From the NCBI RefSeq assembly GCF_013266695.1, contig NZ_JABRXF010000002.1, positions 744,001 through 808,000 of the forward strand: a stretch of 64,000 nt of DNA, in the 5' to 3' direction. Each line of letters opens with the position of its first letter. The first letter of the stretch is position 1. The DNA is from Hongsoonwoonella zoysiae (GTDB lineage Bacteria; Pseudomonadota; Alphaproteobacteria; Rhizobiales; Stappiaceae). The translations under genes and the position numbers were made by a program. Below, piece by piece: positions 51,740 to 63,970 of the stretch. The notes beneath the pieces are model-generated. The model made no database searches. It was given only the letters and a program-made list of their open reading frames with translations, and was not told where the DNA came from.

Positions 51740-52318
51740 TCAGGCCGGCAATATCGGAACGCCAATGAGCCACGAATGAAGTTGCCACACAAACAGGCCA
51801 TAGATGACAAGTCCGCCGGCAATCGCCGCGACATCGTTGCGCAGAGCCCCCTCACCCGGCGCCACACCACCTGGCATGCCCCGGCGTTTGAGCGATATGC
51901 GGTCGGCAACGGCCCAGGCAAGAAACGACCCGAACAGCAGAACGGACGCCGCGTCGCCATTCGCCAGCAAATGCGCGAAAGCCCAAATCTTTACCGCCAG
52001 GATCGTCGGATGCTTTGCGCCCGCCTTTATCCTTCCCGGCAGATATGTGGAAAGGACGAGGATGAATACGGGCAACATCAGGAGCATGACCAAATGCGCC
52101 AACCAGACCGGCGGCTCGTAAAGGAGTGCTGGCCCGGCGAAACGCGCATCCCCGTAACCGATCACAATGAAAACGAGACCGACCACGGAAACCAGCGAAA
52201 AGATACCCTTGAAGGCCCCTTCGCCAAGTCGGGCTTTCAGGTGGGAATCGGCATCCGGAAACATCGGCAAACTGTGTGTGCCGAGAAAGAGAACCAGCCC
52301 CAGGACAAGATATGCCAT
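51740..52318 (-). CDS. NnrU-family membrane protein
   Basis: The 192-residue protein has about five to six helices (AYLVLGLVLFLGTHSLPMF; FKGIFSLVSVVGLVFIVIGY; WLAHLVMLLMLPVFILVLS), and conserved H15 in LGTHSLP. NnrU was found in nitric-oxide-related denitrification loci, but most homologues sit apart from nir or nor genes, as here. Its role is unclear. ATG 52318 is used; an earlier in-frame start at 52363 is unlikely. Confidence 0.9.
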   Translation of the reverse strand: MAYLVLGLVLFLGTHSLPMFPDADSHLKARLGEGAFKGIFSLVSVVGLVFIVIGYGDARFAGPALLYEPPVWLAHLVMLLMLPVFILVLSTYLPGRIKAGAKHPTILAVKIWAFAHLLANGDAASVLLFGSFLAWAVADRISLKRRGMPGGVAPGEGALRNDVAAIAGGLVIYGLFVWQLHSWLIGVPILPA

Positions 52319-52477
52319 CCGTTCCGCACTCCAGCTTGTCAGTAAAGCCGATGCCAACCGCACCCGCCGTCACCCGGCTTTGAAGGATTGCGGATGCCGT
52401 GTCAACTCCGTGACGAAGCGATACTTTTTCGGTTAAGCTTTGAAACTGACGGGCGCCTTGCGATCAGGAATGCACGA

Positions 52478-52822
52478 ATGTCCATCGATATCGATGCTGC
52501 AAGAACACGACTTCTTGAACGGAAAAACGAGATCAAGCGACTGAGCGAAATCTCCGAGGATTCGCGCGCGACAGTCAACCTGGACCAGCAATCCGTCGGG
52601 CGCCTTTCGAGGATGGATGCCTTGCAAATGCAGGCGATGGCACAGGCCTCCGAACGCAGCAGAAGCGCGGAACTTCAACGTATCGACGCTGCGTTAGCCA
52701 GAATCGAGACAGGCGACTACGGATATTGCCTCGACTGCGGGGAGGAGATCGCCGAGAAGCGCCTGGAAATCGACCCATCCGCCAGTCATTGCGTCCACTG
52801 CGCAGGCGCGAGGGAAAACTGA
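52478..52822 (+). CDS. DksA/TraR-type C4 zinc-finger protein
   Basis: The 114-residue protein has an N-terminal coiled coil (about 8-75) and a C4 zinc finger: C84, C87, C105 and C108 (CLDCGEEIAEKRLE, then HCVHC). It is shorter than E. coli DksA (151 residues) and lacks the DxxDxA-tip features that I can verify. It may tune RNA polymerase in the stringent response, but could be a TraR-like or housekeeping variant. CAGGA precedes ATG 52478. Confidence 0.85.
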   Translation: MSIDIDAARTRLLERKNEIKRLSEISEDSRATVNLDQQSVGRLSRMDALQMQAMAQASERSRSAELQRIDAALARIETGDYGYCLDCGEEIAEKRLEIDPSASHCVHCAGAREN

Positions 52823-52921
52823 GCAAATTGCATTTGCGATTTCTCAAGCTTTTGGATGGCACTTGATCCCAAACGGAAAACCGAGAAAAAGGTTATGGGT
52901 TCAGGGATTTTGGAGAGCAGA

Positions 52922-53179
52922 ATGTCGGAGCAGGATCGCCGAATAGCTCCTCGCCGCCGCACCATCAAAGGCGGCAAGATCATTATCAACGGCAACTCCG
53001 TCTACGATTGCATGGTCCGCAATCTTTCGGATACCGGCGCCCGGCTGAAGCTTGAGAGCACTATCGGCATCCCGACGGAGTTCGAATTCAGGATCGTCAA
53101 CGAAGACATCCACGTCATCGCACTCGTCAAATGGCGCAACGACCGGGAAATGGGCGTATCCTTCGAACGGTTTCTTTAA
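52922..53179 (+). CDS. PilZ-domain protein
   Basis: The 85-residue protein is a single PilZ domain. The RxxxR-type basic cluster is RRIAPRRRT (residues 6-14), and the (D/N)xSxxG element is NLSDTGARL. Both are needed to bind cyclic di-GMP, so it probably is a c-di-GMP receptor. GGAG lies 7 bp before ATG 52922. An earlier frame from 52856 is not supported. Confidence 0.82.
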   Translation: MSEQDRRIAPRRRTIKGGKIIINGNSVYDCMVRNLSDTGARLKLESTIGIPTEFEFRIVNEDIHVIALVKWRNDREMGVSFERFL

Positions 53180-53320: not shown

Positions 53321-54196
53321 TCAAAGTCTTTCGTAGGCTCGTCGGTAACGCTCAAGATTGGTTTCGGTGTAAGTCAGGTAATCGAAATCGATAAACGACG
53401 TGAGTTCCGACACCATGCTCCACATCGTTTCGCGCAATAGCGAGGCGCATTTCATTGCGCCATAGCTTTGCATAAGGCGGGTGTCCGGTTCCCTACCGAT
53501 ATAGGTCTTCAGCATCAGCCGCTCAGCCTCATCCGGCAGGACGCAATTGGTCGCGAGACCGCCGAGGTCGAAAAGCGGTGAGTTGAAGCCGCCATATTCC
53601 CAATCCACGAGCCAATAGCGGTCTTCTCCACGCAAGATGTTGGCCGGCAGCAGATCGTTGTGCCCAAGTACGAGATCGATCTTGCCAACCGCTTTTTCCA
53701 GCCTTTCGGCTTCCTGCATCAACTGCGGGAGCTTCTGGATGTGAGGTGAATTGCGCGCCGAAAGGAACCCGCAATAGTCACGCAGGACATGAAACACCCA
53801 GAAGGTCATTATCGGCCCTCGCGCAAGCACGGTAACCTCTCGGTGCGCCCTGGCGACAAGACGGGTTACGTCCACCAGCGTGCCCTGATCGTGCAGATCG
53901 GCCTCGGACAACGCCGTGGCTTCTTCGAATTCAAGCACGAGAATGCCGGCTTCGGCATGATGTACCGCCGGTGAAATGCCTGCAGCTGCCGCGGCCCGGC
54001 TGATGGCCAGTTCATTGAACCGCATGACGCCATGCTCGGGGATGTCATCTCCGAAGCGGACCACGTATTTTCGGCCCTGGTCCTTAAGCGTCAGATTGAC
54101 ATTGGTAATGCCACCCTCAAGTGGCTCTATGTCCTGCGGATCGGCCCAACACGACAATGCCCGCGCTTTTTTTATCGCCTCTTCAAGTGCGCTCAT
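53321..54196 (-). CDS. Choline-kinase/aminoglycoside-phosphotransferase-like protein 1
   Basis: The 291-residue protein is an APH/choline-kinase-fold enzyme: nucleotide-loop LEGGITNVNL (27-36), Brenner motif HNDLLPANIL with catalytic D181, and VDWEYGGFNSPLFDLG with metal D198. It is the last gene of the transporter operon and overlaps the permease by ATGA. Likely role: ATP-dependent phosphorylation of the imported amine or a metabolite, with choline or ethanolamine kinase type as the best guess. Confidence 0.87.
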   Translation of the reverse strand: MSALEEAIKKARALSCWADPQDIEPLEGGITNVNLTLKDQGRKYVVRFGDDIPEHGVMRFNELAISRAAAAAGISPAVHHAEAGILVLEFEEATALSEADLHDQGTLVDVTRLVARAHREVTVLARGPIMTFWVFHVLRDYCGFLSARNSPHIQKLPQLMQEAERLEKAVGKIDLVLGHNDLLPANILRGEDRYWLVDWEYGGFNSPLFDLGGLATNCVLPDEAERLMLKTYIGREPDTRLMQSYGAMKCASLLRETMWSMVSELTSFIDFDYLTYTETNLERYRRAYERL

Positions 54197-56238
54197 TCCA
54201 GTCCCAGCCTTTGTTGAGATGAGCGGGCCAGCGCCGTGACCACCCGGTCCGCGATTATCGCGATGAAGGCAACCGATAGTCCAGCGACGATGCCCTGGCC
54301 AATATTGGCCTTGGTAAGCGCGATATAAACCTCCTGGCCGAGATCCCGCGTACCAACGAGAGCCGTTATGACAAGCATCGATATCGCCAGCATGATGGTC
54401 TGGTTGAGGCCGAGCAGGAGGGACGGCGCCGCAAGAGGCAGCTTGATCCTCCAGAGGATCTGACGCTCGGTACAGCCGGACACCTTGCCCGCCTCAATCA
54501 GTTCTTCGTCGACAGAACGAATGCCATGCGCCGCATAGCGCACGGCCGGCGCCAGCGCGTAAAGCACGACGGCTATCATTGCCGAAAAGTCGCCAACGCG
54601 GAAAAGCATCACGACCGGGATCAGATAGACGAAACTTGGCAGCGTCTGCAGCGTATCGATCATTGCGCCGATAATGGAATTGGCCCTCGGGTTCTGGCCG
54701 GCCCATATCCCCAACGGAATACCGATCAGGCTCGCGATCAGAACCGAAACCGAGCAAAGGTAGATGGTCGTCATTGCCTCACGCCAGAGGCCTGACGCTG
54801 CGATGAAGAACGTCATCACAGCGGCCATCATGCCCAACCTCCAACCGCAGATACGTGCTGCCGCCAAACCGACGACGACGATGCCCCAAGCCCACGGGAT
54901 ACCGGTGAAGAAGCGCTTTACCGGAAGGAGCAGGAAATTCAGCAAAACCGTTTTGACCGCCTCGATCGCGTCGAAGAAATTGATGTTTATCCACTCTATC
55001 GCGGAATTCCAGAACGTTCCCGTCGTGACGGTAAGATTTGCCGGATATTCCCGAAATTCCGGAAAATAGACACCCGCCAGCGTTGTCGAGATCGTAATCA
55101 GGGCAACAAGCGTCAAAACGGGGTGGCGCTTATGAAATGGCATTTGCGAATTTCCGGGTGGGCGAACCCGCCGCACGGCGAATGCCTGGCTTAGACGGTC
55201 CAATGCTATGGCCATGACGACGATAGCGAGCCCGGCTTCTATGCCTCCGCCAATATCAAGACGCCGCAATGCGGTCAGAACGTCGTAGCCAAGCCCGCCT
55301 GCCCCGATCATGGATGCTATGATGACCATATTGAGACTGAGCATGATGACCTGATTGACGCCGACCATGAGCGACGGCATCGCGGTGGGCACAAGCACCT
55401 TCCACATGAGTTGCCCGCGCCTGCAGCCAACCATGCGCCCGGCTTCGATCACTTCCTCCGGCACCGTGCGTAGTGCCACAGTCGAGATGCGCACCATCGG
55501 CGGCATTGCGTAGATCACCGTCGCGATCAGTGCGGCCACCGGACCGAAACCAAAAAGGACAAGGATCGGGACGAGATACGCAAAGACCGGGACCGTCTGC
55601 ATCAAGTCGAGAACGGGGCGCAGGAATCGTTCAAAAGCGGGCATCCGATAGGCGGCAATGCCGAGCGCAAGCCCTCCGACAACGCCAATGGGAACGGCGA
55701 TGAGCACCGATGCGAGCGTGACCATGGCGCTTTCCCACTGCCCGAAGATGGCAAGATAAGAAAAGCAGAACCCCACCAACAGGGCGAGCGCCCAATCCTT
55801 GGCGTAAAGGGCAAGGGCAACGACAATTGCGATGATCGCGATCCAACTGAGGGGCGGCGCAACTTCCAGCGCCTGCTGCCCTTGCCCGATCGTAAAACCC
55901 TCGATCAGAAATGACCGCGTAAGGTCATATGGTGCCTCGACAAGGGATGAGATGAACCGGGTGAAATCCCGAAAGGTGAATAGCCCGAAGCTTAAGTCCT
56001 CGACGAGCCAGTTCGTCGCATTGGAAATCCACCTGTCGAGAGGTATTTCCAGATTCTTTGGATAGCGGATGATCCAGCGTGCATCGAATGCCTTGTAGAG
56101 CGCAAACGACCAGGTCGACAGCGCCCATGTGATTAAAAAAAGTATTATCCAGAAGATCCGGGAAACAGAGGGTACGGCGGCAAAAACCGGTGCCGGGGCC
56201 TGAGCCGATTCAGCATGGTGGTGCACCCCATCCGTCAT
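54193..56238 (-). CDS. Glycine-betaine-type ABC transporter permease, fused tandem
   Basis: The 681-residue inner-membrane protein contains two ProW-like permease halves. Each has an EAA loop: EEVIEAGRMVGCRRGQLMWK (261-280) and EELIEAGKVSGCTERQILWR (about 585-605). Both halves carry LDLMQTVPVFAYLVPILVLF or IDTLQTLPSFVYLIPVVMLF. Standard ProW is one half used as a homodimer, so this is a covalent dimer. It overlaps both proV and the phosphotransferase genes by 4 bp. Confidence 0.93.
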   Translation of the reverse strand: MTDGVHHHAESAQAPAPVFAAVPSVSRIFWIILFLITWALSTWSFALYKAFDARWIIRYPKNLEIPLDRWISNATNWLVEDLSFGLFTFRDFTRFISSLVEAPYDLTRSFLIEGFTIGQGQQALEVAPPLSWIAIIAIVVALALYAKDWALALLVGFCFSYLAIFGQWESAMVTLASVLIAVPIGVVGGLALGIAAYRMPAFERFLRPVLDLMQTVPVFAYLVPILVLFGFGPVAALIATVIYAMPPMVRISTVALRTVPEEVIEAGRMVGCRRGQLMWKVLVPTAMPSLMVGVNQVIMLSLNMVIIASMIGAGGLGYDVLTALRRLDIGGGIEAGLAIVVMAIALDRLSQAFAVRRVRPPGNSQMPFHKRHPVLTLVALITISTTLAGVYFPEFREYPANLTVTTGTFWNSAIEWININFFDAIEAVKTVLLNFLLLPVKRFFTGIPWAWGIVVVGLAAARICGWRLGMMAAVMTFFIAASGLWREAMTTIYLCSVSVLIASLIGIPLGIWAGQNPRANSIIGAMIDTLQTLPSFVYLIPVVMLFRVGDFSAMIAVVLYALAPAVRYAAHGIRSVDEELIEAGKVSGCTERQILWRIKLPLAAPSLLLGLNQTIMLAISMLVITALVGTRDLGQEVYIALTKANIGQGIVAGLSVAFIAIIADRVVTALARSSQQRLGLE

Positions 56239-57263
56239 GCGCCCGCCCGCCCTATCATGATATCTATTGCGGTCCGGGCGTCTACGGTTCCGATTGCCTC
56301 TCCTCCTTCGCCGGTCACCTTGAAGGGATGCGTCGCGGCATCGATCCGGCGAACGGTGTCCGCGACAGTTAGATTGCCTGAAAGTTCTCCGGCATAAGTG
56401 CCTTCGGGAACGCCCGGCGACATGATTGAGCGCAGCTTCGTCACCTTGGCGCGCGGAACATGACGGGTGAATTCCTCGACATAAGGCGTCGCCGGATCGA
56501 GAACCAGTTCCTCGGGCGTTGCCGTCTGCTCGATACGCCCCCCCTTCATGACCGCAATACGATCGGCAAGGCGGATCGCCTCATCGAAATCATGCGTGAT
56601 GAAGACGATCGTCTTGTGCAGCATGGACTGAAGACGGAGAAACTCGTCCTGCATTTCACGGCGGATAAGCGGATCAAGCGCGGAAAAGGGTTCGTCGAGG
56701 AACCAAAGGTCAGGGTCCGCGACCAACGAGCGGGCGATGCCGACGCGCTGCTGCTGACCGCCGGAAAGCTGACGCGGGTAATAGTCTTCCCGCCCCGTCA
56801 GGCCGACGATATCTATCATCTGTCGCGCCTTTTCCTCCCGGGTGCGGCGGTTCACCCCCTGAACCTCAAGCGGGAAAGCCGCGTTCTGCAGTACAGTGAG
56901 ATGCGGCAACAAGGCAAAGTGCTGAAAAACCATGCCCATTTTCTTGCGCCGAAGATGAATGAGTTCGCTCTCACTCATCGCCAGCAAATCATTGCCTTCG
57001 AAACGGATTTCACCCGCCGTCGGCTCGACAAGGCGGGACAAACACCTCACCAGGGTGGATTTTCCAGATCCGGACAATCCCATGATGACGAAAATTTCGC
57101 CCTTCCGGATCTCAACGCTAGCGTCCCGCACGGCACTGATGATGTTACCATCCGCCAACTCCCGGTCGGTGGGTGCGCCGTTGTGCTTTTCAAGAAAACC
57201 CTTGGCTTGAGGCCCATAGAGTTTCCAGACTCCGCGGCAATCAAGGATGACAGGGCGCTCCAT
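56235..57263 (-). CDS. Quaternary-amine ABC transporter ATP-binding protein (ProV-like)
   Basis: The 342-residue ATPase has P-loop GLSGSGKST, Q-loop VFQHFALLPH, signature LSGGQQQRVGIARSL, and Walker B DLWFLDEPFSALD. A C-terminal extension (about 270-340) looks like a reduced CBS region (SIMSPGVPEGTY...GEGGEAIGTVD), which in ProV/OpuAA proteins senses osmolality. ATG 57263 has GGAG upstream, whereas TTG 57269 does not fit. It lies 194 bp downstream of the binding-protein gene. Confidence 0.94.
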   Translation of the reverse strand: MERPVILDCRGVWKLYGPQAKGFLEKHNGAPTDRELADGNIISAVRDASVEIRKGEIFVIMGLSGSGKSTLVRCLSRLVEPTAGEIRFEGNDLLAMSESELIHLRRKKMGMVFQHFALLPHLTVLQNAAFPLEVQGVNRRTREEKARQMIDIVGLTGREDYYPRQLSGGQQQRVGIARSLVADPDLWFLDEPFSALDPLIRREMQDEFLRLQSMLHKTIVFITHDFDEAIRLADRIAVMKGGRIEQTATPEELVLDPATPYVEEFTRHVPRAKVTKLRSIMSPGVPEGTYAGELSGNLTVADTVRRIDAATHPFKVTGEGGEAIGTVDARTAIDIMIGRAGA

Positions 57264-57277
57264 CGCCAACTCCGGTC

Positions 57278-57329
57278 TAGAGCATATCCCGCGAATTCAG
57301 AATCGGATTTCGCGATAAGGACATGCTCA
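57278..57329. repeat. Rhizobial palindromic repeat (GAGCAT..ATGCTC type) between binding protein and ATPase
   Basis: GAGCAT (57280) and ATGCTC (57323-57328) mark an imperfect palindrome with CCCGCGAA / TTTCGCG inner arms. This sequence pattern recurs in intergenic DNA of many rhizobia from memory. It sits directly upstream of the ATPase gene. Confidence 0.55.
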
Positions 57330-57419
57330 AATCTTTGATTCTGCAGCGATTTCTCGTTACGAATGCGATCTCGCTTTCAGGACAAGCGCTCCAGGGCATC
57401 AGGTCGTCAGACACAATAA

Positions 57420-57445
57420 CGGCGGTGCCTTTCCGGACACCGCCG
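57420..57445 (-). other. mRNA hairpin after the binding-protein gene
   Basis: An 8-bp perfect stem CGGCGGTG / CACCGCCG with a 10-nt loop lies 13 bp past the binding-protein stop, with no U-run. It could protect the 5' part of the operon transcript so that the binding protein is made in excess. Confidence 0.55.
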
Positions 57446-57457
57446 ATGAAGTTTTCA

Positions 57458-58399
57458 TTACTGAGCCCAGGAACTCCAGCTATCTTTGTTTGCCGCCATC
57501 CATTCTGCGACCACATCCTCAACCGACATTCCCTGAAGATCGACCTTCGCGACCATCTCGCCCATATCTTCGTTACTGACGTGGAATGCCCTGATCGCCT
57601 TGGCGGCGCCCGGCCACTTTTCCTCGACGCCTTTCCAGGCAACTTTCCAGATCGGACCGGTCGGCTTGCCGCAGTCGTAGGCGGCATCGGGGTTGATGCC
57701 GGCGGACGGATCGTTATAGCACTCCACGGAGAAAGGCGGGAATTTCACGAAGCTGCCTTCATATTTCGAAGGAGCCCAGTGAGGCGAGTAGAGCCACAAC
57801 ACGATTGGCGCCTTGCGCTGATAGGCGGATTCAAGCTCCGCAAAAAGGGCGGCGTCCGTGCCGGCATGGACAACTTCGAAATCCATGCCGAGAGCCTCGA
57901 CGCGTTCATCATCAAAGCCGCCCCAGGTAACGGGCCCGCCGAGATAACGGCCAAGCGGCGCGGTCTCCGGTGTGGCGAATTCTTCCGCGCAATCATTAAG
58001 GGCTTTCCAATCCGGCAGGCCGGGGCAGACGTCCGCCATATAGGCGGGGTACCACCACTCCTCAATGGCGACCATGCCCGTTTCGCCCATGTTCACGACA
58101 TTGCCGGTTGCGGTCGCCTCATCCATGGCTTCGCGACCCGTTGTCTCCCAGATTTCCATGGCGACGTGGAGATCGCCGGTTTTCAGGCCGGCGAACTGGG
58201 CAATGTAATCGGCCTGAACATATTCGATATTATAGCCGGCGTTCTTGAGCACTTCGCCCATGATCGTGGTGGTCACGATCTGACCGGTCCAATCATGGGT
58301 CGTCAGCTTGATCGGGTCTGTCGATTCCGGCCCCGCTGCCGCCGTATGAACCGCCAAGGTGGAGAAAGCGGCCACGGCCGCCAAGAATTTACGAGCCAT
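57458..58399 (-). CDS. Glycine-betaine/choline-type ABC substrate-binding protein
   Basis: The 313-residue protein has a Sec signal (RKFLAAVAAFSTLAVHTAAAG, about 3-23) and an OpuAC/ProX-type fold (KLTTHDWTGQIVTTTIMGE). Trp residues that could form an aromatic box for a quaternary amine are frequent: EIWETTG, EEWWYPAYM, PVTWGGFDD, WLYSPHW. It has paired Cys residues (125/137 and 228/242 by count), as in periplasmic binding proteins with disulfides. It is first in the operon. Confidence 0.92.
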   Translation of the reverse strand: MARKFLAAVAAFSTLAVHTAAAGPESTDPIKLTTHDWTGQIVTTTIMGEVLKNAGYNIEYVQADYIAQFAGLKTGDLHVAMEIWETTGREAMDEATATGNVVNMGETGMVAIEEWWYPAYMADVCPGLPDWKALNDCAEEFATPETAPLGRYLGGPVTWGGFDDERVEALGMDFEVVHAGTDAALFAELESAYQRKAPIVLWLYSPHWAPSKYEGSFVKFPPFSVECYNDPSAGINPDAAYDCGKPTGPIWKVAWKGVEEKWPGAAKAIRAFHVSNEDMGEMVAKVDLQGMSVEDVVAEWMAANKDSWSSWAQ

Positions 58400-58460
58400 C
58401 TCAGAATTCCCCGCTGATTTTCCTTGTCCGATCCTTTCGACGACCGGAATAAAAACGTAT

Positions 58461-58503
58461 CAACGATTCCACAAAACGCAACATAAACCAACATGATTTG
58501 TGG
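58461..58503 (-). promoter_or_regulatory. Candidate operator region upstream of the transporter operon
   Basis: Direct repeats CAACAT lie 10 bp apart (58479 and 58489). The second is followed by GATT. They sit within an inverted repeat CCACAAA (58469-58475) / TTTGTGG (58497-58503). A related arrangement lies upstream of the oxidoreductase gene (62877-62907). A DeoR-family binding site is inferred. The rest of this 225-bp divergent spacer shows nothing more. Confidence 0.4.
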
Positions 58504-58624
58504 ATATAGACGTCTTGCATGGCTGCCCAGCGTGCTTTTGCATGGCCTTTAGTGCAAACTTCACGTGTAATGCCGACTATCGATTGCCGAGCCCCCCCAA
58601 CGACCCGCGCGGCTGGAAGCGAGC

Positions 58625-59401
58625 ATGAAAACGGATATTGAAAAGATCGCTCAGTTGGCTACTGAAATCGTGGAACGGGCAAGCCCTATCGCGATGGCGC
58701 ACTTCCGTGCGCCGCTGGCTCTTGAGGCCAAGGCCGACAATAGCCCGGTAACCATCGCGGACCGGGAAACGGAAACATTTATTCGCAAGGAGCTTGCCTC
58801 GGCATTTCCCCAGGACGGAATATTCGGAGAGGAATTCGGGACGGACAATCCGGATGCGGAGGCAGTCTGGTTCATCGATCCTATCGATGGAACGCGCTCA
58901 TTCATCACCGGAAATCCGCTGTTCGGAATGTTGCTCGGGCGCTATGCGAAGGATCTGCCCCAACTCGGGATCGTACGGATGCCGGCGCTTAACGAAACCT
59001 ATGTCGGCGTTAAAGGCCATGGCGCAACGCTTAACACAAAGACGATAACCTCTCGCGGCACCACGCGCCTTTGCGACGCCATGGTCTATATCAACGAGGC
59101 AGAGCAGATGAACGCGGACGACCCAGCGCGTTTTTCGCGCCTTTGCAGCATCGGGCATACTCGCCGAATGGCCTATGACTGCTATCCCCACGCCCTCGTC
59201 GCCTCGGGCCAAATCGACGCTGTGGTGGACTTCGGGCTCGAACCTTACGACTACCTCCCCCTTGTCGGGCTTGTCGAAGCCGCCGGTGGCGTGATGTGCG
59301 ATTGGAACGGCGGCCCGCTTGGCCTTGCCTCCGACGGTCGCGTCGTCACCGCCGCGACTCCGGCTCTGCGCGACGAAATACTCGCCGTTCTAAACGCCTG
59401 A
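58625..59401 (+). CDS. Inositol-monophosphatase-family phosphatase (HisN/IMPase-like)
   Basis: The 258-residue protein has the metal sites of this family: GEEFG (E69-E70), DPIDGT (D85, D88) and EPYDYLPLVGLVEAAGG. The sequence is closest to HisN-type histidinol-phosphatases of rhizobia, though it lies in a transporter cluster rather than a his operon. It may dephosphorylate a compound made by the nearby kinases. It is divergent from the binding-protein gene, so the 225-bp spacer serves both. Confidence 0.85.
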   Translation: MKTDIEKIAQLATEIVERASPIAMAHFRAPLALEAKADNSPVTIADRETETFIRKELASAFPQDGIFGEEFGTDNPDAEAVWFIDPIDGTRSFITGNPLFGMLLGRYAKDLPQLGIVRMPALNETYVGVKGHGATLNTKTITSRGTTRLCDAMVYINEAEQMNADDPARFSRLCSIGHTRRMAYDCYPHALVASGQIDAVVDFGLEPYDYLPLVGLVEAAGGVMCDWNGGPLGLASDGRVVTAATPALRDEILAVLNA

Positions 59402-59453
59402 ACAATCGGCAGGGGCGGAACAACGACCTGGATAGTGCCAGCTTGCAGGAAGG

Positions 59454-60383
59454 CTATCCTGCTCTGACCGCCGCAACGTGGCCCGCAAACTCCTCGCTCT
59501 GCATCAGCGCCTTGCAGCGCTCGAACCTGGTTGTAGAGTAAACCCAGAAATCTTCCGCCGGGTTCTCGTCGGCATGCTGGATCAGCCCCCACAAGGTCCA
59601 AAGCAGGTCGCACATCGCCTTGTAGACTACGACACGGCCCTTCTCCGCCGCCGTAGGCGCCCTGCCGAAGTAACCGTGAAGAAGCTCCGCTTCGCGCGCC
59701 TCGTCCATGCCCGCTTCGACCGAGAGGTCCCCTACATCCCATAGCGGATCGTTCATGCCTGAGTATTCCCAATCGACGACCCACATGACCTTGCCATCAT
59801 CCAGAAAGTTTTCGCATAGCGGATCGCAATGGCAGGGTGCGAGTTCGGCCGGATTGGCAGCTAGCGCATCCTTGACCGGCTCCGCCGCCGTTACGATGTC
59901 ATGGTATCCGTCAGGCAGTTCCACATCCCTTGTGGAGAGCACCTTCAGATAACCGTCGATCATGGAAAACAGCTCGAACCGGAAGTCGAATGCCTCGCCA
60001 GACCGATGCAATCTCGCAAGCGCCTCTCCGGCCCGCACGGGCGAACCCGAACGGGATTTGAAAAGATCGGGCGTCATGGTGGCGATGCCGTCTATGGTGC
60101 GCGTGATCATGACGCCGCTTTCGGCACTGGCCCAGATGACCTCAGGCGACACGCCCGCACGATGGGCAGCCCTCGCATTGGTAATCTCGACCGCGCGGTC
60201 GATATATTCTTCCGTGCCCTCTCCCGGAATGCGAACAATCACGTCGCCCTGCGGGGCCGTCACCCGATGCACCAGATTGGTCAAACCACCGAGGCGGGTG
60301 ATCGAACATTCCTCCGATTTGATATCGGAAAAACCTGGAGCGTTGCGAAGAGCTGCAAGGACCAACTCCGCATTGTTTGCCAT
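59454..60383 (-). CDS. Choline-kinase-like phosphotransferase 2
   Basis: The 309-residue protein has the same fold as the first phosphotransferase but is only distantly related. Its loop is LGGLTNLVHRV, with Brenner-like CHCDPLCENFL (D187) and VDWEYSGMNDPLWDVG (D204). ATG 60383 follows GGAGAGTTTG; the TTG before it is not needed. It lies 10 bp after the oxidoreductase gene, in the same operon. The CHCDPLCENF form is usual in rhizobial choline/ethanolamine kinase-like proteins. Confidence 0.87.
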   Translation of the reverse strand: MANNAELVLAALRNAPGFSDIKSEECSITRLGGLTNLVHRVTAPQGDVIVRIPGEGTEEYIDRAVEITNARAAHRAGVSPEVIWASAESGVMITRTIDGIATMTPDLFKSRSGSPVRAGEALARLHRSGEAFDFRFELFSMIDGYLKVLSTRDVELPDGYHDIVTAAEPVKDALAANPAELAPCHCDPLCENFLDDGKVMWVVDWEYSGMNDPLWDVGDLSVEAGMDEAREAELLHGYFGRAPTAAEKGRVVVYKAMCDLLWTLWGLIQHADENPAEDFWVYSTTRFERCKALMQSEEFAGHVAAVRAG

Positions 60384-60393
60384 CAAACTCTCC

Positions 60394-62817
60394 TCAGGAT
60401 TTCAGCCGTTCGTTGCGCGAGTCGTATAGCGGCCCATCGACACGCTCGACCGGATGACGGTCACCGAAGACCTCTACCTCGAACATTCCACGATCCCATA
60501 ACGCGGCATCCAGATAGCCGAAGACTATCGTCTTCCCGACGGTGTGACCGAACCCGGCCGATGTCGCGAGGGAGACCGGTTCACCCCCATGAAGAATGGT
60601 CTCTCCGCCAAAGACCGGAAGCCTGGATGCGGTTACGAAAGTGCAGAGTTTGCGCCGCGGACCGCCCGTTTTCTGCTTCTCCAGCGCGTCGCGGCCGATA
60701 AAGTTTCCGCCCGACTTCAGATGGACCCGGAAGCCGAGCCCGGCCTCAATCGGCGTATAGTCGGGAGAGATGTCGGCAGACCAGTAGAGATAGCCTTTTT
60801 CGAGGCGCAAGCTGTCGATCGCGCGATAACCGACATCGCGGATTGCGTATGCTTCGCCCGCTTCGCGCAGAACACTGTAGACATGCGCGCCGAATTCGGT
60901 CGGCACATGCAACTCCCAGCCCAGTTCGCCGACAAAACCGATGCGGACCGCACGCACCGGCGCGGCGCCTACAATGACCTCCTGCGCCGTGGCGAAAGGA
61001 AATGCGGAATTTGAAACATCCTGCTCGCAGACCGCCTGCAAGACCTCACGCGACCTAGGCCCGCAAATGTTGATGACCGCGCGCGCCGACGTCATTTCGA
61101 CAAGCTGAACGGAGCCATCCTTTGGCATGTGCCGGCGGATCCAGTCCGCATTGTGCGTTCCGAATCTCGAACCTGTAACGATATAGAAATGATCCTTGCC
61201 GAGGCGGGTGATCGTCAAATCCGCCTCGATCCCGCCGCGCTCGTTGCACAACTGGGCGTAGATGACAGAGCCGGCGGGCTTGTCCATGTCGCAGGCCGCG
61301 AGCCTTTGCAGGAGATCGAGAGAACCCGGGCCGATCATCTCGAATTTGGCGAAGCTCGACTGGTCGATCAAAGCAACGCCTTCGCGAACAGCCTTGTGCT
61401 CTTCGGCTGCAAACGCGTGCCAGCCCGGCTGCAGGAAATCAAGCTGGTCGACCGGTTCCACCCCTTCAGGCGCGAACCAGAGCGGCCTTTCCCAGCCGTT
61501 TTTGGAGCCGTAAACCGCGCCACGATGCCTCAGGATCCCGTAGAGCGGCGAGAGGCGGAGTCCACGGGCGCTTTCATGCTCCTCACCCGGATAGCGCATC
61601 TTGTAATGGTGGGCATAGTGCTCCACCGCGCGTGGGTACATGAAGGCTTTCGTACCGTGATGCGGGCCGAAGCGGCGAACGTCCAGCGGCCAGAGATCGA
61701 GGCTCGGCCGTCCTTCCGTAATCCATTCGGCAATCATTTCGCCCACACCGCCGCCAGCCGCTATTCCATAAAGGAAGCCTGTCGCCATCATCAGATTGTC
61801 AAAGCCCGGCGCCCAACCCATGACGAAGTCGCCGTCGGCGGAATACGGGATCGGACCATTGATCACAGTCCTGACGCCGACCTCATTCAGAATGGGCGTC
61901 ACCTCGGCCGCCAATGCCGCCAGAGGCGCGAAGCGATCCAGATTATCGGGAAGAAGCTGGCGGGTGAACTCGCCGGGAATGCCGTCGTCGCCGAACGGCA
62001 AGGTTCCCTCCTCATAACCTCCGATCACCAATCGGCTGCCAGCATCGGGCTTATAGTAGACCAGCCGTTCCGGATCACGCAGCGTGGGCAGATTCTTGAC
62101 CAACTCCGGGTCGGGCAGCGGCTCGGTGACGATATATTGGTGCTCGACAGCGCATGCCGGCACGCGAATCCCAAGCTTCGCGCCAAGCTCGCGGCTCCAC
62201 ATGCCGGCGGCAAGGACGACGACATCCGCCGTGTAGTCACCACTGGAGGTCGACACCTTCGTAATGCGGCCATCATTGACCTCGAAACCCTCGACCTTGA
62301 TACCCTGCCTGATCGTGGCACCGGCTTTTCGCGCAGCGGCTGCGATCGCCTGGGTCAGGCTCGCCGGATCCACATAGCCATCGGAAGGGATATAGGCCGC
62401 ACCGAGAACCCCTGAAGCATCGATATAGGGGAAGAGCGCCTTCGCTTCTTCGGCGGTGATCATATGCATTTCGAGGCCGAAGCTGCGCGCCATGGTGGTC
62501 AGTCGCCGGGCTTCCAGAAGGCGCTCCTTGGTCACCGCTAGACGAAGACTGCCGACTTTCTTCCAGTCGAATGCCATGCCCGAAACTTCTTCAAGGCTGT
62601 CGTACATGGCGACAGAACGCTGCAACATTCTGGTCGTATTGCGCGAAGACCGAAGCTGGCCAACAAGGCCCGCGGCATGCCAGGTCGCCCCCTCGGTGAG
62701 AGATGCCTTCTCCAGAAGCACGACATCCTCTTCGCCGTTCTTTGCCAGATGGTAGGCAATCGAGCACCCGATGATGCCACCGCCAATGATCAGGTGCTTT
62801 GCTTCGAACTGGCCCAT
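60394..62817 (-). CDS. FAD-dependent oxidoreductase fused to GcvT domain (dimethylglycine dehydrogenase class)
   Basis: The 807-residue protein has a DAO-type FAD fold at the N-terminus (GGGIIGCSIAYH, 12-23), TWHAAGL with the His that can hold FAD covalently in DMGDH and sarcosine dehydrogenase (H47), and a GcvT folate domain in the C-terminal half (from about 430, with YLYWSADISPDYTPIEAGLG). Such enzymes oxidise N-methylated glycine or amines and pass the methyl to THF. The exact substrate may differ here. GGGGAGCCGGGA precedes the ATG. Confidence 0.9.
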   Translation of the reverse strand: MGQFEAKHLIIGGGIIGCSIAYHLAKNGEEDVVLLEKASLTEGATWHAAGLVGQLRSSRNTTRMLQRSVAMYDSLEEVSGMAFDWKKVGSLRLAVTKERLLEARRLTTMARSFGLEMHMITAEEAKALFPYIDASGVLGAAYIPSDGYVDPASLTQAIAAAARKAGATIRQGIKVEGFEVNDGRITKVSTSSGDYTADVVVLAAGMWSRELGAKLGIRVPACAVEHQYIVTEPLPDPELVKNLPTLRDPERLVYYKPDAGSRLVIGGYEEGTLPFGDDGIPGEFTRQLLPDNLDRFAPLAALAAEVTPILNEVGVRTVINGPIPYSADGDFVMGWAPGFDNLMMATGFLYGIAAGGGVGEMIAEWITEGRPSLDLWPLDVRRFGPHHGTKAFMYPRAVEHYAHHYKMRYPGEEHESARGLRLSPLYGILRHRGAVYGSKNGWERPLWFAPEGVEPVDQLDFLQPGWHAFAAEEHKAVREGVALIDQSSFAKFEMIGPGSLDLLQRLAACDMDKPAGSVIYAQLCNERGGIEADLTITRLGKDHFYIVTGSRFGTHNADWIRRHMPKDGSVQLVEMTSARAVINICGPRSREVLQAVCEQDVSNSAFPFATAQEVIVGAAPVRAVRIGFVGELGWELHVPTEFGAHVYSVLREAGEAYAIRDVGYRAIDSLRLEKGYLYWSADISPDYTPIEAGLGFRVHLKSGGNFIGRDALEKQKTGGPRRKLCTFVTASRLPVFGGETILHGGEPVSLATSAGFGHTVGKTIVFGYLDAALWDRGMFEVEVFGDRHPVERVDGPLYDSRNERLKS

Positions 62818-62876
62818 TCCCGGCTCCCCGCTTTGACGACGCGAACGGCATGCTGAACGGCGGCCCTTTCAAAAAG

Positions 62877-62907
62877 CAACATTACTCCACATATATCAAC
62901 ACTGATT
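62877..62907 (-). promoter_or_regulatory. Candidate operator region upstream of the oxidoreductase operon
   Basis: CAACAT (62877-62882) and CAACAC (62897-62902), the latter followed by TGATT, lie 20 bp apart. The spacing is two helical turns, against one turn in the transporter promoter. The rest of the 62818-63109 spacer (292 bp) shows no gene I can support. Confidence 0.4.
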
Positions 62908-63109
62908 GTAGCTTTTTGTGCAAATCAGCCCACAAGGCGAATTCGGGCCCGAAGCCCTGACTCGCAGGCAAAGGCCGCTCGATCCGGAAAGGGTATCGGC
63001 TTCAATACCTTCGCCGCGATAATCATGCGCAGCCGGCATACGCGAAAAAGACACCTTGTCAGCATGGCACGGACGAACACTAAGCGAGCGCCAATATCCT
63101 CACGCGTTG

Positions 63110-63895
63110 TTACCCCACCCAATCGGCAAGGTGGACCTCAATGCCCCAATTGCGCATTGCCGCCCGCAAGTCTTCCGGAAGCCCTTCATCGGTCACAAGA
63201 TGATCCACCTGATCGGGATTGCCGATCGTTACGGGCCCCTCGCGTCCGAACTTGCTTGAATCGCAAGCCATAATCCGCGTGCCGGAATTTTTCATTATAT
63301 GCCGGGAAAACTTGGCCTCCTCCAGGTCGAAGAGCGTAAAGCCGTTTCGCGGATCGAGGCCGGCGGTGGAGAGGATAGCGAATTCCGTATGGAAATTGGA
63401 GACGAACGCCATCGCATCCGCGCCAAAGGCACCGCCGTCTTCGCCTCGCAGTTCGCCACCGGCCATGAAAACGCGGTTGTCGTTGCGCATGGAAAGGCGG
63501 TAGGCGACATAGACGGAGTTGGTCACGATCGTCAGCTTGCGGTGACCGCGAAGCGCATCGGCGATAAAAGCGGTAGTGCTGCCGATATCGAGAAAAAGCG
63601 AACATTCATTGGGGATCATTCTGGCTACATAACCGGCAATGCGTTTTTTTGCCGTCCGGTTCAGACTAAGCCGCTCCTGCAGATTACCCTCTTCCTGTTC
63701 TTCCTGGTCGATCAGTTGAACGCTGCCGTGCGACTTCTCCACAGCCCCCATTTCCACGAGCCGTTTGACGTTACGACGAACGGTTTCTCCGGAAATACCC
63801 AACGCCTCCGCCAGAACGCTGATCTTCTGCAATCCGCCGACCTTACGCAACTCGTTCAGGATCTGTCGTTGCGTGTGATTGGGAAATGCATCCAT
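63110..63895 (-). CDS. DeoR/GlpR-family transcriptional repressor
   Basis: The 261-residue protein has a DeoR winged helix (MDAFPNHTQRQILNELRKVG; LGISGETVRRNVKRL, about 33-47) and a C-terminal ISOCOT-like sensor domain with FLDIGSTTAFIADAL (the phosphosugar-binding GST motif), and TNSVYVAY. Family members bind phosphorylated sugars or polyols and then leave DNA. ATG 63895 has AGGAG upstream; the frame can extend to 63961 but starts in a palindrome. It probably controls the adjacent oxidoreductase and transporter operons. Confidence 0.88.
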   Translation of the reverse strand: MDAFPNHTQRQILNELRKVGGLQKISVLAEALGISGETVRRNVKRLVEMGAVEKSHGSVQLIDQEEQEEGNLQERLSLNRTAKKRIAGYVARMIPNECSLFLDIGSTTAFIADALRGHRKLTIVTNSVYVAYRLSMRNDNRVFMAGGELRGEDGGAFGADAMAFVSNFHTEFAILSTAGLDPRNGFTLFDLEEAKFSRHIMKNSGTRIMACDSSKFGREGPVTIGNPDQVDHLVTDEGLPEDLRAAMRNWGIEVHLADWVG

Positions 63896-63955
63896 GCGTA
63901 TCAGTCTCCTGCGAGTGGCCGAACGACTCACGCTAAGAGAAATTCCCACGCAAGG

Positions 63956-63970
63956 CCACATTCACTGTGG
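63956..63970. promoter_or_regulatory. Palindrome upstream of the deoR-type gene
   Basis: CCACA-TTCAC-TGTGG is a 15-bp inverted repeat 60 bp upstream of the repressor start. CAACGT is found at the very end of the window (63995-64000). It could be an autoregulatory site. Confidence 0.35.

Follow-up and report, generated by a model that had tools for sequence, protein, structure and literature searches.

Organization of the locus

This analysis concerns a 64,000-nucleotide stretch of the Hongsoonwoonella zoysiae genome (contig NZ_JABRXF010000002.1, positions 744,001 to 808,000 of the forward strand), referred to here as the window. Near its right end lies a gene cluster for a transporter, two choline-kinase-like phosphotransferases (K1 and K2), a phosphatase, a folate-linked flavin N-demethylase (DMG1) and a DeoR-type regulator; a second demethylase gene, DMG2, lies just outside. 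The features are listed below in window coordinates unless stated otherwise.

53321..54196, minus strand: K1, choline/ethanolamine-kinase-like phosphotransferase, 291 aa, partner of DMG2 (Pfam Choline_kinase 69 bits, APH 51 bits)
54193..56238, minus strand: PERM, fused double permease, 681 aa (two BPD_transp_1 domains; ChoW-type TIGR03416 441 bits, cut-off 363)
56235..57269, minus strand: ATP, ProV-type ABC ATPase (betaine/proline/choline; TIGR01186 330.8 bits, cut-off 326.6)
57458..58399, minus strand: SBP, predicted periplasmic methylammonium-binding protein (OpuAC 174.6 bits)
58469..58493, minus strand: operator-like site, three TGTKG at 10-bp period, 70-94 bp upstream of SBP
58625..59401, plus strand: IMP, IMPase-family phosphatase (Inositol_P 164 bits)
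59454..60386, minus strand: K2, choline-kinase-like phosphotransferase, 310 aa, partner of DMG1 (choline kinase/APH family)
60394..62817, minus strand: DMG1, FAD-GcvT N-demethylase, 807 aa (DAO, FAO_M, GCV_T, GCV_T_C)
62877..62901, minus strand: operator-like site, three TGTKG at 10-bp period, 60-84 bp upstream of DMG1
63110..63961, minus strand: DeoR/GlpR-family regulator (DeoRC 158 bits plus HTH_DeoR; start ATG at 63961 or 63895)
C2:808158-810602 (= L083:2159-4603), outside the window, divergent from DeoR: DMG2, second FAD-GcvT enzyme, 814 aa, 48% identical to DMG1

Gene overlaps and short gaps are consistent with two minus-strand units, SBP-ATP-PERM-K1 and DMG1-K2, with the IMPase gene between them on the plus strand. 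Profile scans with Pfam and curated models found all eight open reading frames (ORFs) in the window at the places and with the domain families that had been given in an earlier note on this DNA, and the catalytic residues of the enzymes are intact. Two details of that inventory did not stand. The end it gave for the DeoR gene, 63895, is an internal ATG, and it lacked the ninth gene, DMG2, which begins 158 bases beyond the window end.

Pairing of kinases and demethylases across genomes

Conservation of the gene set was examined in two samples. The first, selected by K2, consists of the 80 best K2 loci, 54 of them at least 20 kb long. The second consists of 387 genomes of the class, in which DMG2 orthologs were counted at a threshold of at least 56% identity. 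Neighbour genes in other genomes were called by codon-position scoring, since the longest ORFs gave antisense ORFs in GC-rich genomes.

K1 and DMG2 accompany K2 in 41 of the 54 long loci, the transporter and K1 do so in 41, and the whole set including the IMPase gene is found in 28. Among the 387 genomes, K1 is present in 52, K2 in 15 and a DMG2 ortholog in 38. All 38 DMG2 genomes have K1 (background 52/387; hypergeometric p ~3e-41, kinship ignored), and the two genes are adjacent in 34 of them. K2 is nested in the K1 genomes (14/15; p ~2e-12, kinship ignored). This nesting is informative, as K1-DMG2 can stand alone and K2-DMG1 hardly ever does. Rhizobium rosettiformans carries the DeoR gene and then SBP-ATP-PERM-K1-DMG2-DMG1-K2 in a single run. 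Each kinase has its own demethylase, K1 with DMG2 and K2 with DMG1, and the gene set is far from chance. The earlier note had staked its interpretation on the co-occurrence of these genes in other genomes, and they do co-occur, both in the K2 loci and in the 387 genomes. The locus is widespread in marine alphaproteobacteria, and K1-DMG2 is also found in streamlined genomes of 1.4 Mb.

The DeoR regulator and its putative operator

A three-unit TGTKG pattern with 10-bp spacing has exactly two matches in the 4.36-Mb genome, one before SBP and one before DMG1, and the reversed control has 0. Since these two sites were used to define the pattern, the genome count speaks only for its rarity elsewhere, and independent evidence comes from the related loci. 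Across 2.2 Mb of these loci, 104 matches to the two-unit form were counted, and 84 lie no more than 250 bp from the start of a locus gene; other unit spacings gave 9-43 matches in the same sequence, of which no more than 11 were near starts. The sites share the consensus TGTTGATTTW, repeated in tandem. No inverted repeats were found in the locus promoters. Because the operator is confined to their two promoters, both minus-strand units probably form one DeoR regulon, and DeoR would be the protein that binds the TGTKG operator. The DeoR control suggested earlier is strengthened by this putative operator common to the promoters of both units.

Binding protein, kinases, demethylases and phosphatase

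The closest solved structure to SBP is TmoX (4xz6, 129 identical residues). The TmoX pocket is formed by W55, W102, F106, E131, W177, F220 and W222, and its Glu bonds the N-oxide oxygen of trimethylamine N-oxide (TMAO) (PMC8918994). Four of the seven residues, three Trp and the Glu, are kept in SBP, and F106 is replaced by Gly or Ala, F220 by Trp and W222 by Tyr in 59/59 sequences. The resulting cage of W37, W84, E113, W159, W202 and Y204 is invariant in the same 59/59. The replacement of F106 by a small residue would make the pocket roomier than TMAO requires. From its residues SBP looks like a methylammonium cage with a choline-like ligand. TMAO itself was rejected as the ligand, as three of seven pocket positions are changed, and the ChoX-type choline-binding model (TIGR03414) gives SBP 42.5 bits, below the cut-off of 379. 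In two AT-rich marine genomes (L015:3859-9881 and L026:3838-9857) the transporter lies between an SDR gene before it and PhnW after it, K2 is divergent and DMG1 is absent; in L015 an aminoethylphosphonate transporter is also nearby.

The closest solved structures to K2 are 3dxq (E 1.6e-117) and the choline kinase LicA. The catalytic HxD...N and D...E motifs of K2 (D188, N193, D205, E207) are present in at least 95% of 78 orthologs. The residues Tyr197, Trp251, Trp254, Tyr268 and Glu213 form the choline site of LicA (PMC4364537), and their counterparts in K2, Y208, W263, W266, Y283 and E224, are conserved to the same degree in the same orthologs. All choline-binding residues of LicA are retained in K2 except for one Val to Leu change, and since this pocket is kept, K2 is expected to accept a methylated ammonium. 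The earlier note had proposed that the imported compound is choline-like, which the aromatic cage of SBP and the LicA-type pocket of K2 bear out. K1 retains the LicA-site residues T31, D181, N186, D198, Y201, W259 and Y276 (45 orthologs); the catalytic D181, N186 and D198 are conserved and the Glu of its DWEY motif is conserved less. K1 and K2 are probably choline-kinase-type phosphotransferases, one per demethylase, as predicted from these residues. For both kinases the top NCBIfam match is the guanitoxin kinase GntI, at 149 and 113 bits against a cut-off of 357, which was read as general LicA-type kinship.

The closest solved structures to DMG1 are human and rat dimethylglycine dehydrogenase (DMGDH) and dimethylglycine oxidase (DMGO), and DMG2 is likewise nearest to DMGDH. 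In DMG1 the FAD-linking His47, the His226/Tyr254 dyad and the folate-site Asp533 are invariant in 65 sequences, and the covalent-FAD His, the His/Tyr dyad and the folate Asp of DMG2 are invariant in 66. Flavin N-demethylases of the DMGDH/DMGO family act on tertiary or secondary amines, and this requirement makes choline unlikely as a direct substrate. The residue beside the FAD-His is Ala in both families and not the oxidase-type Pro; we take this Ala to be the gatekeeper of dehydrogenase type that has been described in the human enzyme (PMC5082570). Genes for electron transfer flavoprotein (ETF) and ETF-QO lie beside the modules in L071, L140, L141 and L155, and ETF genes are found in Salipiger. 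Since ETF genes adjoin the modules in several lineages, ETF fits as the electron acceptor. In L140, L141 and L155, which are the 1.4-Mb streamlined genomes, K1-DMG2 and ETF/ETF-QO are accompanied by homocysteine methyltransferase or choline dehydrogenase. In Shinella HZN7 (L086:15395-16747) the genes immediately after K1-DMG2 encode a metal/formaldehyde-sensitive repressor and DmeF efflux, which may respond to formaldehyde that escapes during demethylation.

The metal-site residues E69, D85, D88 and D209 of IMP are invariant in 31 sequences. IMP scores 234 bits as histidinol-phosphatase HisN, below the cut-off of 275, and a true HisN (313 bits) is encoded elsewhere in the genome, which leaves the IMPase free for the pathway of the locus. 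The IMPase gene is found in 35 of the 80 K2 loci. HAD phosphatase genes occur as well: L148 and L079 have one next to K2, and in L080 one separates DMG2 from DMG1. The order in L148:8596-11122 is SBP-ATP-PERM, a sarcosine/dimethylglycine-methyltransferase-like gene, K2 and the HAD phosphatase; K1 and DMG genes are absent, and the same ligand may here be methylated instead of demethylated.

Neighbouring genes and ethanolamine

Neighbour genes point to N-methylated ethanolamines with ethanolamine as the end product and not to choline itself. The ethanolamine permease EutH follows K1-DMG2 in L144 and L168 and lies near DMG1-K2-HAD in L079. In Salipiger abyssi the run SBP-ATP-PERM-K1-DMG2-ETFb-ETFa-FolD-PurU continues with N-formylglutamate amidohydrolase (NFGAH), a glutamine synthetase-like (GS-like) enzyme, an aldehyde dehydrogenase (ALDH), an iron-type alcohol dehydrogenase (FeADH), GlyA, the L-serine ammonia-lyase SdaA and a HAD hydrolase. 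A gamma-glutamyl-ethanolamide route has been proposed for ethanolamine in Streptomyces (PMC6529630), and by analogy the middle of the Salipiger run is a route of this type, leading on to serine. Parts of it also lie beside the locus in L004, L005, L031 and L086. The genome of the window encodes GS, ALDH, FeADH and NFGAH with 56%, 60%, 62% and 48% identity to the Salipiger set, on contig C1; the TGTKG operator was not found at this gamma-glutamyl cluster. The Salipiger abyssi plasmid (L173:14582-21015) also carries, between its two kinase-demethylase modules, a second ProX-like transporter and then a near-cut-off TMAO demethylase (1074/1100 bits).

Proposed pathway and alternatives

We give even chances to the proposal that the locus is a regulon under DeoR control through which the cell breaks down N-methylated ethanolamines, namely the N,N-dimethyl and N-monomethyl forms and perhaps further amino alcohols resembling choline. 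The gene set, the pairing, the conserved catalytic and pocket residues, the operator pair and the neighbour genes on which it is based are read from sequence. SBP-ATP-PERM would import the amine, and K2 and K1 would phosphorylate its hydroxyl and so trap the compound. The phosphate would place an anionic group near the amine, analogous to the dimethylglycine used by the nearest relatives. DMG1 and DMG2, with covalent FAD, would then oxidise the N-methyl groups, passing the carbon to tetrahydrofolate (THF) as 5,10-methylene-THF and the electrons to ETF. K2-DMG1 may act on the more methylated substrate and K1-DMG2 on the last methyl group. The IMPase, or the HAD phosphatase in some other genomes, would take off the phosphate. 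Ethanolamine would be degraded via gamma-glutamylation to glycine, which GlyA would join with the methylene-THF made by the demethylases. What the substrate and the inducer are, that phosphorylation precedes demethylation, and in which order the two pairs act are inferences. The phosphorylation-first logic is put forward more tentatively, at somewhat less than even chances: dedicated folate-linked flavoenzymes would demethylate O-phospho-N-methylethanolamines to phosphoethanolamine, and these would be new phospho-dimethylethanolamine and phospho-methylethanolamine demethylase activities, widespread in marine alphaproteobacteria.

Several points weigh against this proposal. In K1 the choline pocket is altered, with N217 in place of LicA Glu213 and V/T/I262 in place of LicA Trp254. 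The presence of two kinases for one phosphorylation is unexplained and makes sense only if substrates enter at different methylation levels. EutB is not enriched with K1 (3/52 K1 genomes, 28/335 others), and a PF06751 search of the genome of the window gave no match; ethanolamine ammonia-lyase was rejected as the next step on both grounds. Some K1-DMG2 or K2 loci adjoin phosphonate genes (TmpA/TmpB, PhnW), choline dehydrogenase or homocysteine methyltransferase, which suits other substrates. The genome counts also ignore kinship.

It is possible, though unlikely, that the same substrates are processed in the other order: the amino alcohols would be demethylated in free form by the FAD-GcvT enzymes, and the kinases would act on the resulting (methyl)ethanolamines, to trap them, to supply lipid synthesis or to make the DeoR inducer. 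The evidence from linkage, pockets and ethanolamine context fits this order equally well, and a kinase whose substrate carries fewer methyl groups would be expected to lack part of the quaternary-amine pocket, as K1 does. However, the choline pocket kept in K2 leads one to expect a methylated ammonium, the nearest characterised relatives DMGDH and DMGO use anionic substrates, and phosphatases recur beside the modules.

A variant of the classical choline/glycine betaine route, with DMG2 and DMG1 as dimethylglycine and sarcosine dehydrogenases and the kinases diverting choline, is distinctly improbable. In its favour, DMGDH is the solved structure nearest to both enzymes, L141 has betA in front of the locus, and in L140 and L155 the locus is flanked by homocysteine methyltransferase. 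Glycine betaine and dimethylglycine, however, have no hydroxyl for obligately linked kinases, and the published Roseobacter choline/betaine route names DMGDH, SARDH and BHMT and no kinase (PMC4744692). The earlier note had set the locus apart from the betA/betB route, and betA indeed lies outside it, elsewhere in the genome of the window.

Phosphonate genes suggest another substrate. L137 has the run K1-DMG2-TmpA-TmpB beside PhnW-PhnA-PhnY, TmpA/TmpB adjoin the locus in L034, PhnW directly follows the permease in L015 and L026, and TmpA is found in 17/52 K1 genomes and 16/335 others. The idea that N-methylated aminoethylphosphonates (AEP) are degraded, with DMG1/DMG2 turning dimethyl- or methyl-AEP into AEP for PhnW or acting after glycine betaine made by TmpA/TmpB, is nevertheless the least probable of the alternatives, as TmpA was not found in the genome of the window and is not close to K1 in most genomes, a phosphonate offers the kinases no hydroxyl, and the SBP cage has the TmoX Glu at the oxygen end and not a basic residue. 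N-methyl AEP are near-isosteres of O-phospho-N-methylethanolamines, and therefore the same demethylase may serve both in some lineages.

Outside the subject of the pathway, guaA (named from its sequence alone) is the next gene after DMG2. To the left of the locus, window positions 51740-53179 hold an NnrU gene, a DksA/TraR-type zinc-finger protein gene and an ORF of 107 aa, which are seemingly unrelated. K2 is 84% identical to its Stappia sediminis ortholog, and the genome is close to Stappia.

Significance

N-methylated ethanolamines are membrane phospholipid head groups or their precursors. If the proposal is true, the locus provides catabolic genes for these compounds, and nitrogen and methyl groups derived from lipids are linked to folate one-carbon metabolism in marine alphaproteobacteria. 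K1-DMG2, K2-DMG1 and the TGTKG operator would then be metagenome markers. The locus also makes the action of flavin N-demethylases on phosphorylated amino alcohols testable. Searches of open-licence full-text papers found no bacterial catabolic genes for N-methylated ethanolamines, no such route, no loci combining a kinase with dimethylglycine enzymes and no choline-kinase-type enzyme paired with a flavin demethylase linked to folate, although earlier work may exist.

Comparison with known systems

All the enzyme families are known; what appears new is that a kinase is paired with a flavin demethylase linked to folate, and that this happens two times within a single predicted regulon. LicA of Streptococcus pneumoniae and 3dxq of Mesorhizobium loti have the fold and motifs in common with the locus kinases, and K2 shares the choline pocket. 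LicA supplies cell-wall phosphocholine, whereas the kinases of the locus are tied to demethylases and a transporter and the pocket of K1 is altered. DMGDH and DMGO share with DMG1 and DMG2 the domain order DAO-FAO_M-GCV_T-GCV_T_C, the FAD-His, the dyad, the folate Asp, the dehydrogenase-type Ala and the ETF neighbours. Unlike them, DMG1 and DMG2 are paired with a kinase gene, and they probably act on an amino alcohol or on its phosphorylated form. TmoXWV, a TMAO transporter, has the nearest solved binding protein, with a common Trp and Glu cage. It differs from the locus in that F106, F220 and W222 are changed in SBP, PERM is a fusion of permeases and the locus has no TMAO demethylase.

The BetAB/BHMT/DMGDH/SARDH route likewise deals with choline-type amines and folate-linked FAD-GcvT demethylases, but it has no kinase or phosphatase and its genes are separate from the locus in the genome of the window. 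The GlnA4 route of Streptomyces coelicolor has GS-like, alcohol/aldehyde dehydrogenase and formylglutamate-amidohydrolase-family genes that match those after Salipiger K1-DMG2. Here, in contrast, demethylation would precede that route, and the genome of the window has the route genes on another contig.

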